Shown here: piece after piece, positions 45,096 to 48,005 of the stretch
Position numbering within the stretch: position 1 is the stretch's first letter
How the letters are laid out: each line of letters begins with the position of its first letter
Origin: an uncultured Flavobacteriales bacterium
GTDB taxonomy: Bacteria > Bacteroidota > Bacteroidia > Flavobacteriales_D > Sanyastnellaceae
Reading direction: 5' to 3'
Assembly: GCA_905478325.1 (NCBI GenBank)
Contig: CAJQIB010000008.1
Span: forward strand, 62,001-126,000
Length of the DNA: 64,000 nucleotides
The notes under the pieces: model-generated
Told to the model about the DNA's origin: nothing
The model's input: only the letters and a program-made list of their open reading frames with translations
Databases searched by the model: none
Program-made: the position numbers and the translations under genes

Positions 45096-46184
45096 ATGAG
45101 CCAAGCTTCCAACCGACCTAACAATTCGTATCGCATTCAAGGAATGCAGCACATAGGCGTCGCCGTGACCAACATGGATCGGTCCCTGAAGTTGTACCGT
45201 CAACTCTTCGGAATGGACATTCCCTTTTTTGACTCGGTACAGGAAGCTCCGTTGATGGACAGTCACACGCGGGGTGAGACCATCCTCAAGCGGGCAAGTA
45301 TGGTGCTGAATCTCCAAGGAGGCTGTGCATTCGAAGTATTGCAGCCAACCTCTTTTGAGCCTAAACCGGCTTCATGGGAGGTCGGCCTCGGAGATCTTGG
45401 GATTGCAGTGGTTCAGATGAAAACGAAGGACATTGTCCGAATGCACAAGCACGCGCTTCAATTCGATGATGTGACCTGTGACGACGAACTCACCCGCACC
45501 CCTTGGGGTGCCCCCACCTTCTTCTTGAACGATCTAGACGGCAATGTTTTTCAAATTTTAGAGGCTTCAGATTCCTTTGCTAAAACAGGCCATGCATCGG
45601 GAGGCGTATTGGGGTGTACAATCGGTGTTTCTGACATGGAAGCCTCACTGAAATTGTACGCGACCACCCTCGGCTATAGTGAAGTTCTGTACGATGAGAC
45701 TGCCGTACAATGTGATTGGTCACACCGCCCTTATGGTTCTGAAAACTACCGCCGTGTGCGCTTGACGCAACCCAACCCTGGATCCGGCGGGTTTGGGCCA
45801 CTGACCGGTCGGACCTTTATCGAGCTGGTGCAAGCGAAAGACCGCTCAGGCCGATTTATTTTCGAAGACCGCATTTGGTGCGATACGGGGTTTGCTCACC
45901 TCGGCTTCGATGTTCGCGGTATGGAAACACTCGGTAAAACCTTGTCTACAGAAGGGTTTGGATTCCGCTGCGACACTTCAGACGCCATTGGAATGGGTGA
46001 AACTAAAGTCCACTGCACCTACATCGACGATCCCGACGAATGTTGGTTGGAAATGATTGAAGTCTACAAAATTCCAATTATCGAGAAATGGGGTTTGTTT
46101 CTGGATGTTCAAAAACGCGGTGCTGATGAGTCGCTTCCTCGCTGGATGCTGCACGCGTTGAAGTTCAGTCGGATTCGCGATTGA
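45096..46184 (+). CDS. VOC-family (glyoxalase/dioxygenase fold) protein with two domains
   Basis: A 362-residue protein built from four beta-alpha-beta-beta-beta modules, i.e. two VOC domains: MQHIGVAVTNMDRSLKLYRQL (H19), ...FFLNDLDGNVFQILE (Glu ~152), GVSDMEASLKLYATTLGY, and FAHLGFDV...WLEMIEV (His ~267, Glu ~314). These could form one or two metal sites. The second domain begins CTIGVS, lacking the expected metal His, so one site may be altered. It is too divergent for 4-hydroxyphenylpyruvate dioxygenase. The substrate is unknown. It lies 6 nt after the acyltransferase. Confidence 0.75.
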   Translation: MSQASNRPNNSYRIQGMQHIGVAVTNMDRSLKLYRQLFGMDIPFFDSVQEAPLMDSHTRGETILKRASMVLNLQGGCAFEVLQPTSFEPKPASWEVGLGDLGIAVVQMKTKDIVRMHKHALQFDDVTCDDELTRTPWGAPTFFLNDLDGNVFQILEASDSFAKTGHASGGVLGCTIGVSDMEASLKLYATTLGYSEVLYDETAVQCDWSHRPYGSENYRRVRLTQPNPGSGGFGPLTGRTFIELVQAKDRSGRFIFEDRIWCDTGFAHLGFDVRGMETLGKTLSTEGFGFRCDTSDAIGMGETKVHCTYIDDPDECWLEMIEVYKIPIIEKWGLFLDVQKRGADESLPRWMLHALKFSRIRD

Positions 46185-46191
46185 CGCATTG

Positions 46192-46219
46192 ATTACAATT
46201 CCTTCACAATCTCTTCACA
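46192..46219 (+). promoter_or_regulatory. Three TTCACA-like repeats with 11-bp period, candidate PhoB/PhoP-type binding site
   Basis: ATTACA (46192), TTCACA (46203) and TTCACA (46214) are spaced exactly 11 bp, so one face of the helix. The last two also read as CTTCACA-ATCT-CTTCACA, the 7-4-7 layout of an E. coli Pho box, and fit the Bacillus PhoP box TT(A/C/T)A(C/T)A with 5-bp spacers. The site sits directly upstream of the PhoB-like regulator and suggests autoregulation. Confidence 0.5.
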
Positions 46220-46263
46220 TGGACGACACGATAGAAATTGAATCTTTAAGCGAAGACTCCCAC

Positions 46264-46941
46264 ATGCTCAAGCAGACGATATTATTGGTCGATGACGAAC
46301 CGGATATTCTAGAATTCATTGGGTTCAACCTGATGCAAGCTGGATACGATGTGCGGAGCGCGAACAATGGTCAAGAAGGATTGGAATTGGCCTTAAAGAT
46401 CCAGCCTGACTTAATCCTATTGGATGTCATGATGCCCAAAATGGATGGCATTGAAGCCTGTATCCAAATTCGAAAAGAACCTTCATTGTCTCATTGTCTG
46501 GTGGCCTTCTTAACAGCTAGAGGTGAGGACTACAGCCAAGTCGCAGGTTTTGATTCCGGTGCAGACGACTACATTCTTAAGTCCATCAAGCCGCGCGTTT
46601 TGACCAGCCGAATCAAAGCTCTGCTCCGTCGTGCAAAAAACATTCCATCTGAATTACAGCTCAGAGAACACAATGGTATTTCCATTGATCGAGAACGCTA
46701 TTTGGTCATTCAAAACGGCAAGAAAATCAACCTCCCCAAAAAGGAATTTGAATTGCTGAGCTTACTGTGGTCTCAGCCTGGGAAGGTCTTCAATCGCGAT
46801 AAGATTTTAACTTCAGTTTGGGGGAATGACGTGATTGTTGGTGACCGCACCATCGATGTCCACGTCCGTAAACTTCGATCCAAATTTGGGGCCAACTGCA
46901 TAGAAACAGTGAAGGGCGTTGGCTATAAATTCGACTCGTGA
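46264..46941 (+). CDS. PhoB/OmpR-family response regulator
   Basis: A ~225-residue regulator: receiver domain (acidic pair VDDEPD, phospho-acceptor Asp54 in LILLDVMMPKMDG, Lys in YILKSIKP) and an OmpR/PhoB winged helix (LPKKEFELLSLLWSQPGKV...DRTIDVHVRKLRSKFG...VKGVGYKF). The ATG at 46264 gives MLKQTILLVDDEPDI, the usual family N-terminus; the ATG at 46219 would add 15 acidic residues and would place the start codon inside the TTCACA repeats. Coupled by GTGA to its kinase. The phosphate (Pho) role is inferred from the family and the repeats. Confidence 0.88.
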   Translation: MLKQTILLVDDEPDILEFIGFNLMQAGYDVRSANNGQEGLELALKIQPDLILLDVMMPKMDGIEACIQIRKEPSLSHCLVAFLTARGEDYSQVAGFDSGADDYILKSIKPRVLTSRIKALLRRAKNIPSELQLREHNGISIDRERYLVIQNGKKINLPKKEFELLSLLWSQPGKVFNRDKILTSVWGNDVIVGDRTIDVHVRKLRSKFGANCIETVKGVGYKFDS

Positions 46942-48005
46942 ATTCTGAACTAACTCCAAAAGAAGTTGCCCAAAAAACTTCTCCAATCATCGCTGCTCTG
47001 AGTGCGATTGCCTGCTTTGGTCTGCTGCACGCATTGGACTCAATTCACCTGTGGGCAATGGCCATTTTAGTTGGTCTCGTTATGGAGTACGTGAGCTCTA
47101 TGCTCATTGAATGGTCCGTAAATAAATTCGTCTACAATCGCGTTCAAATGCTCTCTGAAGCCATAACCAAGGTGCAAGAAAGCAGTGGTGCCCAAGTGCA
47201 AATAATCGCATCGGCGGAGAATCAGGATGACAATGTCGATCTGGTTGAATGGGCCAATCAGCAAGTCGAATCCATCCAGAAGATGCATGCGAAAGATAAT
47301 TTCCGGAAAGAATTTATCGGCAATTTGGCACATGAACTCAAAACGCCTCTCTTCAATATTCAAGGCTTTGTGCTAACGCTCTTGGAGAGTGATTTGGAAA
47401 ACAAAGAGCTGAACCGAAAGTTCCTGTCCAAGGCTGCAAAAAACATTTCTAGGATGGCCGAACTGCTCGAAGATTTGGACACCATTGCACGTTTGGAGTC
47501 TTCTAGTTTCGAGATGCGGCTGGAACCGCATAGCATCACTTCAATGATTCGCGATTCCTTCGAAAGTGTAGAAGCCAAAGCGCAAAAACACGGCATTTCG
47601 TTGTCTCATTCCATTGAATCCGCCATCGAAGATGAGCCCATGGTGCTCTGTGGCGGGAGTCAAATGCGTCAGGTTCTAGTCAATTTAATGGGGAACTCCA
47701 TCCACTATGGTAAACCCGAGGGGTCCACACACGTGGCGCTTTCAGTCAAAGACCAGTTCGTTGAAATCGTGATTGAGGACGATGGCATTGGAATCTCTGA
47801 AGAAGATCAAGTCCGCATCTACGAACGATTTTATCGTGTGGACCGAAGCCGCTCGCGCAATTCGGGAGGATCTGGACTGGGCTTGGCGATTGTCAAGCAC
47901 ATCTTGGAAGCGCATGGTCAAGACATTGAGGTCGCGTCGAAAATCGGAGAAGGGACGCGTTTCTCCTTTCATCTTCAGCGCATTCCAGCCGTTGCAATCG
48001 CCTAA
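46938..48005 (+). CDS. PhoR-like sensor histidine kinase
   Basis: A 355-residue kinase with two N-terminal membrane spans (~16-34 and ~40-56) and almost no periplasmic loop, a short cytoplasmic linker, HisKA with phospho-acceptor His132 (FIGNLAHELKTPLF), and an HATPase domain (N-box LVNLMGNSIHYG, G1 EDDGIGI, F-box ERFYRVD, G2 GGSGLGLAIVKHI). All catalytic motifs are intact. The lack of a sensor domain fits PhoR-type kinases that read a transporter. The GTG start overlaps the regulator stop. Confidence 0.9.
   Translation: MNSELTPKEVAQKTSPIIAALSAIACFGLLHALDSIHLWAMAILVGLVMEYVSSMLIEWSVNKFVYNRVQMLSEAITKVQESSGAQVQIIASAENQDDNVDLVEWANQQVESIQKMHAKDNFRKEFIGNLAHELKTPLFNIQGFVLTLLESDLENKELNRKFLSKAAKNISRMAELLEDLDTIARLESSSFEMRLEPHSITSMIRDSFESVEAKAQKHGISLSHSIESAIEDEPMVLCGGSQMRQVLVNLMGNSIHYGKPEGSTHVALSVKDQFVEIVIEDDGIGISEEDQVRIYERFYRVDRSRSRNSGGSGLGLAIVKHILEAHGQDIEVASKIGEGTRFSFHLQRIPAVAIA

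Follow-up and report, generated by a model that had tools for sequence, protein, structure and literature searches.

The tandem repeat in front of a PhoB-like regulator gene is probably an autoregulatory Pho box of that adjacent regulator, giving positive feedback together with the induction of PHO4-like transporter and porin genes. The repeat was identified in a stretch of 64,000 nucleotides of bacterial DNA, referred to throughout as the window. In kind it would most likely be an ordinary autoregulatory Pho box, and what is new is most likely its description for the Bacteroidota; the literature that we covered on a Bacteroidetes or Flavobacterium Pho box, with most subscription journals outside this coverage, yielded no 11-bp box or promoter phasing. 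Autoregulation and a candidate Bacteroidota Pho box had both been proposed by an earlier sequence-only reading of the window, and both proposals gain support from conservation in relatives and from boxes before phosphate genes. The result would provide a concrete Pho box for a major marine phylum, with a consensus and a promoter geometry in whole helical turns, as well as a first target list consisting of phoBR, PHO4-like and porin genes, Na/Pi cotransporters, pst where present and perhaps secreted lamin-tail proteins. A further question that follows from it is how a PhoBR pair senses phosphate where PhoU and Pst were not found.

The repeat in the window

The repeat sits between the stop codon of a VOC-fold gene (46184) and the gene for an OmpR-family regulator, with the conserved domain of the latter located beyond 46264; a histidine kinase gene comes next (Table 1). 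The spacing of exactly 11 bp between successive starts of ATTACA, TTCACA and TTCACA, as claimed by the sequence-only reading, is borne out, as is the role it gave to the A at 46219, which ends the third unit and also serves as the A of an ATG.

Table 1. Features of the regulator locus in the window (columns: feature, positions, strand, remarks)
Upstream VOC/glyoxalase-fold gene	45096..46184	+	relative present in 41/90 family regulator loci (some flanks short)
Possible weak fourth box unit, TTGACG, in phase	46181..46186	+	2.0 bits; overlaps the upstream gene's stop; function not claimed
Box unit 1, ATTACA	46192..46197	+	weak, 1.5 bits; scoring matrix includes own locus
Core 19-bp site, units 2 and 3	46202-46220	+	17.5 bits with own locus in training; 14.9 bits with the genus left out
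Box unit 2, TTCACA	46203..46208	+	7.7 bits; scoring matrix includes own locus
Box unit 3, TTCACA	46214..46219	+	9.9 bits; scoring matrix includes own locus
Candidate -7 element, AATCTTTA	46241..46248	+	degenerate TAnnTTTG, 4 of 6 fixed letters; below the match threshold used for the group
PhoB-like OmpR-family response regulator	46264..46941	+	Response_reg + Trans_reg_C; likely start 46264
PhoR-like histidine kinase	46938..48005	+	HisKA + HATPase_c, domain matches

A search for tandem TTCACA-N5-TTCACA, suggested with the original claim, did not lift the repeat above chance as a bare string in either the window or the genome. With up to two mismatches, three copies were found in the window versus 9.2 expected from shuffles, and the exact pattern TTHACA-N5-TTYACA occurs twice in the 2.375-Mb genome versus once in the reversed control, the second copy (L002) falling inside a 653-aa frame. 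Allowing one mismatch, the whole genome holds 15 places versus 5 in the reversed control, and 13 of the 15 are in open frames; the window site is one of these 13 only by virtue of a longer frame that begins with a TTG at 46189. The two intergenic matches (L009 and L011) do not stand before phosphate genes as far as seen. One of them, L011 (G000:C27:79000-79016), lies between a hydrolase gene and, diverging from it, a pair of genes that look mraZ/rsmH-like by eye, and is a possible further target. Since the bare string does not go beyond chance, conservation across relatives was used to decide. Scored with a matrix from which the genus had been left out, the window site is the top position on the + strand of the window, and when both strands are considered it comes second, after an antisense match in a ClpX-like frame (15.9 bits; gene name assigned by eye). 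This antisense match, at 8573-8555 on the minus strand with 14.7-15.9 bits, is a gauge of the chance background.

Conservation in relatives

At E <= 1e-70, 90 of the 101 family genomes have an ortholog of the regulator, among them 13 of the 14 genus genomes. The upstream DNA of these orthologs was compared along with that of 80 named Bacteroidota loci from the genome collection, of which 66 were kept after 12 duplicates of the family set and two loci that were too short had been removed. Two loci at contig ends (L051 and L098) are excluded from every upstream count, and the named and family sets are not fully independent, since some of the 66 (e.g. L150) apparently belong to the same genus or family.

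Without any motif assumed, identical 5-mer pairs were counted in the ortholog upstreams at spacings of 6-30, and a single spacing, 11 bp, stands out. The 75 family sequences from outside the genus have 63 pairs at this spacing (13 at most elsewhere), the 66 further named loci have 35 (14 at most) and the 12 genus members have 8 (4 at most). The likelihood of an unsupervised two-unit motif, evaluated for periods 8-15, also peaks at 11 in each of the three sets (229.5 versus at most 104.9 at other periods for the family outside the genus, 141.2 versus at most 63.0 for the named loci and 88.0 versus at most 56.5 for the genus). The consensus over 87 sequences is cTTAACAT-N3-cTTAACAT; the motif search reached TTAAC when started flat or from C, G or T, and did not reach it from A starts. 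Among unit variants, TTCACA and TTTACA are preferred in the window's genus and GTTA-type units in some Flavobacteriaceae. The upstream regions of the orthologs carry, in other words, the tandem direct repeats of 11-bp period that are a mark of Pho boxes.

A box of at least 8 bits lies upstream of the regulator in 12/12 genus sequences, in 52/64 sequences from the rest of the family (genus g14 apart) and in 29/66 named loci, the other 37 of which score below 8 bits under a matrix that was trained on the family. Control stretches of equal length inside genes gave two such matches in total. The 12 misses in the rest of the family comprise all 11 g10 sequences scored and one more, with the box missing or decayed. 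In genus g14 none of 12 regulators has an upstream box of at least 8 bits; at these loci (L090-L096, L100, L101, L103, L107 and L109) the regulator abuts the preceding gene, leaving no intergenic promoter, and autoregulation of the regulator seems to have been lost. Across the upstream regions compared, the repeats are kept in relatives, contrary to the lack of conservation that the sequence-only reading had named as speaking against its box, and judged by this conservation the window repeat is more than chance.

Spacing to the promoter

The Bacteroidota -7 consensus, TAnnTTTG, is taken from PMC6847099, and distances were measured from the best box, starting where its final TTAAC ends, to a TAnnTTTG match with five of the six fixed letters. 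These distances cluster at 10, 21-22 and 32-33 bp, i.e. in whole 11-bp steps. The 52 box-bearing family sequences have 18 matches at 10 bp, 11 at 21-22 bp and 8 at 32-33 bp, the genus (n=12) has six at 20-22 bp, and the box-bearing named loci (n=29) have 11 at 21-22 bp and three at 10 bp. Shuffling of the tails covered the classes at 9-11 and 20-23 bp and gave mean counts of 0.1-1.2; for the named loci, the observed count at 9-11 bp does not exceed the highest shuffled count (3 vs 3).

In the window, TTTA of the -7 candidate begins 25 bp past the last box unit. TTTG, TTTA or TTCG is found 23-25 bp past the last unit in 8/12 genus orthologs, and one relative (G107) has TTTG at the place of the window's degenerate element. 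A fixed helical phase to the core promoter, a further mark of Pho boxes, is found for the group, with the window's own element degenerate.

The strict pattern TTAAC-N6-TTAAC-N9..11-TAnnTTYG has 15 matches in the 101 family genomes, one each in 15 genomes, and 7 in the reversed control; all 15 adjoin the regulator gene. For a while this pattern, present at the regulator promoter only, suggested a regulon of a single promoter, an idea given up once looser sites were found in 7 of 10 relatives (in those ten, the reversed control was equally or more frequent).

Phosphate-transport genes with the same box

A test matrix trained on regulator promoters alone was scored against 312 control upstream regions, in which the two best control scores belonged to regulator genes inside the control stretches (L336 and L337) and were set aside. 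The window genome encodes two PHO4-like genes (24.4 and 31.2 bits, under the Pfam cut-off of 33.7), whose promoters score 18.5 and 14.8 bits, values reached by none of the 312 controls with L336 and L337 aside. The first gene has CGTAACATTAACTTAACAT 57 bp before its start and the second (L307) has GGTAACTTTTGCTTAACAC 26 bp before its start, for which the start aligned with relatives was taken and not the frame's first; one of the two is followed by a Porin_O_P porin. In the genus, 8/8 PHO4-like genes score at least 9.9 bits, a level attained by at most 4/312 controls; they come from five of the six genomes searched, the sixth having no PHO4-like match. Their boxes average 13.6 bits with spacing 11 and no more than 4.6 with any other spacing in the range 8 to 16.

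Among the 16 Na/Pi cotransporter upstreams scored, eight reach at least 12.7 bits and G009 reaches 9.8, five are at background, and two are weak on the gene strand, on which the control ranking is based, and high on the other (G034, 5.6 bits; G016, 6.3 bits). The pstS gene is rare (5/249 order genomes at E <= 1e-30), and of its five upstreams in relatives three score at least 10.7 bits, one is weak (2.6) and one is at background. Left out of the scoring of phosphate-gene upstreams were G045, with 31 bp upstream, and L292 and L298, at a contig start and with no match. By eye, the pstS promoter of G060 has four tandem box units and then 10 bp to TACTTTTG. G060 is also the only one of the 101 family genomes with a PhoU frame of PhoU size, the 366-aa frame of G082 being left aside; at L283/L300/L301 (G060:C14) its pst operon stands beside a PhoU match in a 225-aa frame.

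The sequence-only reading had made its case depend on similar boxes before other phosphate genes. They were found at PHO4-like genes, at eight of 16 scored Na/Pi cotransporter genes and at three of five pstS genes; at alkaline-phosphatase-like PF01663 genes no obvious box was seen by eye before the starts taken. Phosphate-acquisition promoters of the window's own genome and of its relatives thus include carriers of the box, as expected of a Pho box.

The regulator-kinase pair and its start codon

The two best models for the window regulator are the NCBIfam PhoB equivalogs TIGR02154 and NF053854, and it stays under the cut-offs of both (205 vs 296.2 and 199.5 vs 270), as do the four orthologs tested from Flavobacterium, Aquimarina, Bacteroidales and Alistipes records. 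The kinase does not pass the PhoR cut-off, its best kinase score being that for PnpS (242.9 vs 400).

Gene order, compared over flanks of 0.7-3 kb, links the pair to phosphate transporters in relatives, as expected of PhoBR. The G088 cluster consists, in sequence, of VOC, regulator, kinase, PHO4-like and Porin_O_P genes, in three Aquimarina loci a PHO4 transporter directly precedes the regulator (L193, the one tested by Pfam, 101.8 bits), and in L183 and, partly, L155 the preceding gene is a Na/Pi cotransporter. In all, a phosphate transporter adjoins the pair in 6/170 loci from three lineages (G088, L193, L201, L224, L183 and L155), the Aquimarina transporter having been compared with the 80 named loci only. 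No phosphate transporter stands beside the pair in the window within the genes examined. An 11-bp box was also observed between the kinase and the PHO4-like transporter at L310 and L018 (G088:C49). Elsewhere in the window, a frame at 51831-52352 matches the TauE/SafE profile over its C-terminal half only (123-237 of 237), and a plasmid search gave two short matches and nothing more.

The neighbours of the pair in Flavobacterium luminosum (L202) are a TonB receptor (PF07715, PF13715, PF14905) and a PF04101 glycosyltransferase, relatives of which occur at 20/80 named loci, L202 included. Because these flanks share the domain sets of Fjoh_0545 and Fjoh_0541, the window pair is likely an ortholog of F. 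johnsoniae phoBR; compared by reported domains, the F. johnsoniae cluster of pf04101 glycosyltransferase, phoR, phoB and pf07715/13715/14905 TonB receptor in the accessible part of PMC8115612 matches L202. The low-phosphate response table of that paper gives 3.06 (p 9e-20) for phoB, and no significant change for phoR (0.76, p 0.056) or the neighbouring oprP (-1.3, p 0.25). In the same accessible part, plant-associated Bacteroidetes are described as lacking Pst, LTD-domain nucleases are found in the low-phosphate table for F. johnsoniae, and the account of the PHO regulon includes no binding site (PMC8115612).

The regulator had been proposed to start at 46264 and not at 46219. In favour of this, an in-frame start codon at the box edge is lacking in 8/12 genus orthologs, and in five of these the box is followed by a stop codon in frame. 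An ATG near the conserved domain is present in all 12. Against it, the frame is open from a box-edge start in the window, L017 and L018 (ATG) and L029 (GTG), and in G107 it is likewise open from the box edge, with GTG in place of ATG where the window has 46264. For the N-terminal extension, the codon-position counts (4, 2, 4 vs 12, 4, 20) are too small to settle the start. Taken over the orthologs, a start at 46264 is likely.

Proposed mechanism and scope

Under low phosphate, the partner kinase would phosphorylate the PhoB-like regulator, which would then bind the successive repeats head-to-tail, one subunit per 11 bp and on one face of the helix. The bound regulator would help the Bacteroidota RNA polymerase to start at a -7 element of the TAnnTTTG type, which in the genus would lie one 11-bp step beyond the commonest family distance. 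The expected outcome is positive feedback on phoBR and induction of the PHO4-like transporter and porin genes that have the same box. That it is the adjacent regulator that binds, that binding activates and does not repress, and that phosphate is the signal are points we infer from the arrangement of the sequences.

Parts of the classical phosphate-sensing machinery were not found. The window genome, which is 98.87% complete, has no PhoU domain as searched with PF01895, none of its 35 matches to TIGR00972 (PstB) is over the cut-off, and PstS has no match at E <= 1e-30. The PhoU domain is present in 0/14 genus genomes, and 18 of the 20 family genomes that do have a PhoU match show it in a frame of 565-755 aa; Pfam confirmed two of these long proteins as Na/Pi cotransporters, and tblastn gave a match to such a cotransporter for 18 of the 19 loci fetched. 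With no PhoU domain and no PstB over the cut-off, the window genome lacks a Pho system of the E. coli type, in which PhoBR is coupled to PhoU and PstSCAB encoded in the same genome. The missing PhoU and PstB had at first suggested that the pair has no link to phosphate, a conclusion that was reversed by the boxes before Na/Pi, pst and PHO4-like genes.

More tentatively, the conserved pair may run a phosphate regulon across much of the Bacteroidota through a -7-phased TTAACA box of 11-bp period, lineages without PstSCAB and PhoU included, an extension that we regard as possible rather than probable. In such lineages the kinase would have to read phosphate in some other way, e.g. through PHO4-like or Na/Pi transporters.

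Known systems and alternative readings

The PhoP box of B. subtilis consists of TTAACA-like direct repeats with an 11-bp period, and phoPR is autoregulated; this system differs from the present one in its RNA polymerase promoter and in the presence of Pst. In the E. coli Pho box, 11-bp tandem repeats replace the upstream promoter element and PhoB is autoregulated, but the unit is CTGTCAT-like, not TTAACA, and sensing depends on Pst and PhoU, parts not found in the window genome. The 11-bp, TTAACA-like geometry is common to other OmpR-type regulators, such as WalR and ArcA, and by eye the TGTTAT/TGTTAC units of some Flavobacteriaceae overlap WalR/ArcA-type TGTWAH or TTAA units. The likeness to PhoB and PhoP sites with which the box had been introduced is real as regards the 11-bp period; WalR and ArcA have this geometry too, so geometry alone proves little.

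The box could accordingly be the regulator's own site while the regulator itself serves core envelope or redox functions in the manner of WalR or ArcA, with phosphate genes a minor part of a broad regulon. We consider this unlikely, even though the regulator is kept in nearly all family and genus genomes, PhoU being found in none of the genus genomes, and box-like repeats also occur before secreted lamin-tail-domain proteins and other genes. A published counterpart, going by its description, is the PhoPR pair of Riemerella anatipestifer, likewise of the Flavobacteriales, with a TTTAACA-type motif (its most conserved letters) and, ahead of the phoPR operon, a 35-nt stretch that PhoP binds, as shown by EMSA (PMC9603813). 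Its motif is likened to that of ArcA, 41 of 50 candidate direct targets are said to be in the membrane, several are tied to aerotolerance, and the main text, in its accessible part, names no pst, porin or alkaline phosphatase (PMC9603813). An 11-bp period, -7 phasing and phosphate-transporter targets, which mark the present box, are not mentioned there for the Riemerella motif. Against a mainly envelope or redox role, box scores at PHO4-like, Na/Pi and pstS promoters far exceed those of control genes, the pair has phosphate transporters as neighbours in three lineages, and low-phosphate responses are reported for F. johnsoniae phoB, whose cluster matches L202 (PMC8115612), and for Riemerella phoPR, up in phosphate starvation (PMC9603813).

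That the box is bound by a different OmpR-family regulator and not by the adjacent one is very improbable. Related regulators do prefer similar repeats, and binding by the adjacent regulator is our deduction. The strict pattern nevertheless adjoins the regulator gene at every one of its 15 matches, and self-promoter binding is reported for Riemerella PhoP (PMC9603813). A chance repeat or coding-sequence relic, with the regulator starting at 46219 or upstream, has the least to be said for it, since the string counts at chance level and the in-frame extension open in the window, L017, L018, L029 and G107 are strongly outweighed by the 11-bp period in three sets, the -7 phasing, the transfer to phosphate-gene promoters and the lack of a box-edge start in most genus orthologs.

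Further box-like repeats

A search of the genus for TTYACA-N5-TTMACA gave 30 places in 18/22 genomes, of which nine are at the expected regulator promoter (the window's included), 13 are in frames and eight are elsewhere. Four of these eight, TTCACA-type 11-bp repeats in four genus genomes (L251, L254, L255 and L257), stand at or just past the end of what is apparently the same gene, whose protein has an N-terminus resembling MNxSPKIIQLD or MxNAPKV. Secreted genes, too, are preceded by box-like repeats, many of them on the opposite strand (L229, L234, L236, L238, L241, L242 and L247), and both of the secreted genes searched, at L229 (via L279) and L236, encode lamin-tail-domain proteins. Three of these places (L229, L238 and L247) adjoin rnhB, with a Na/Pi cotransporter some kilobases further.
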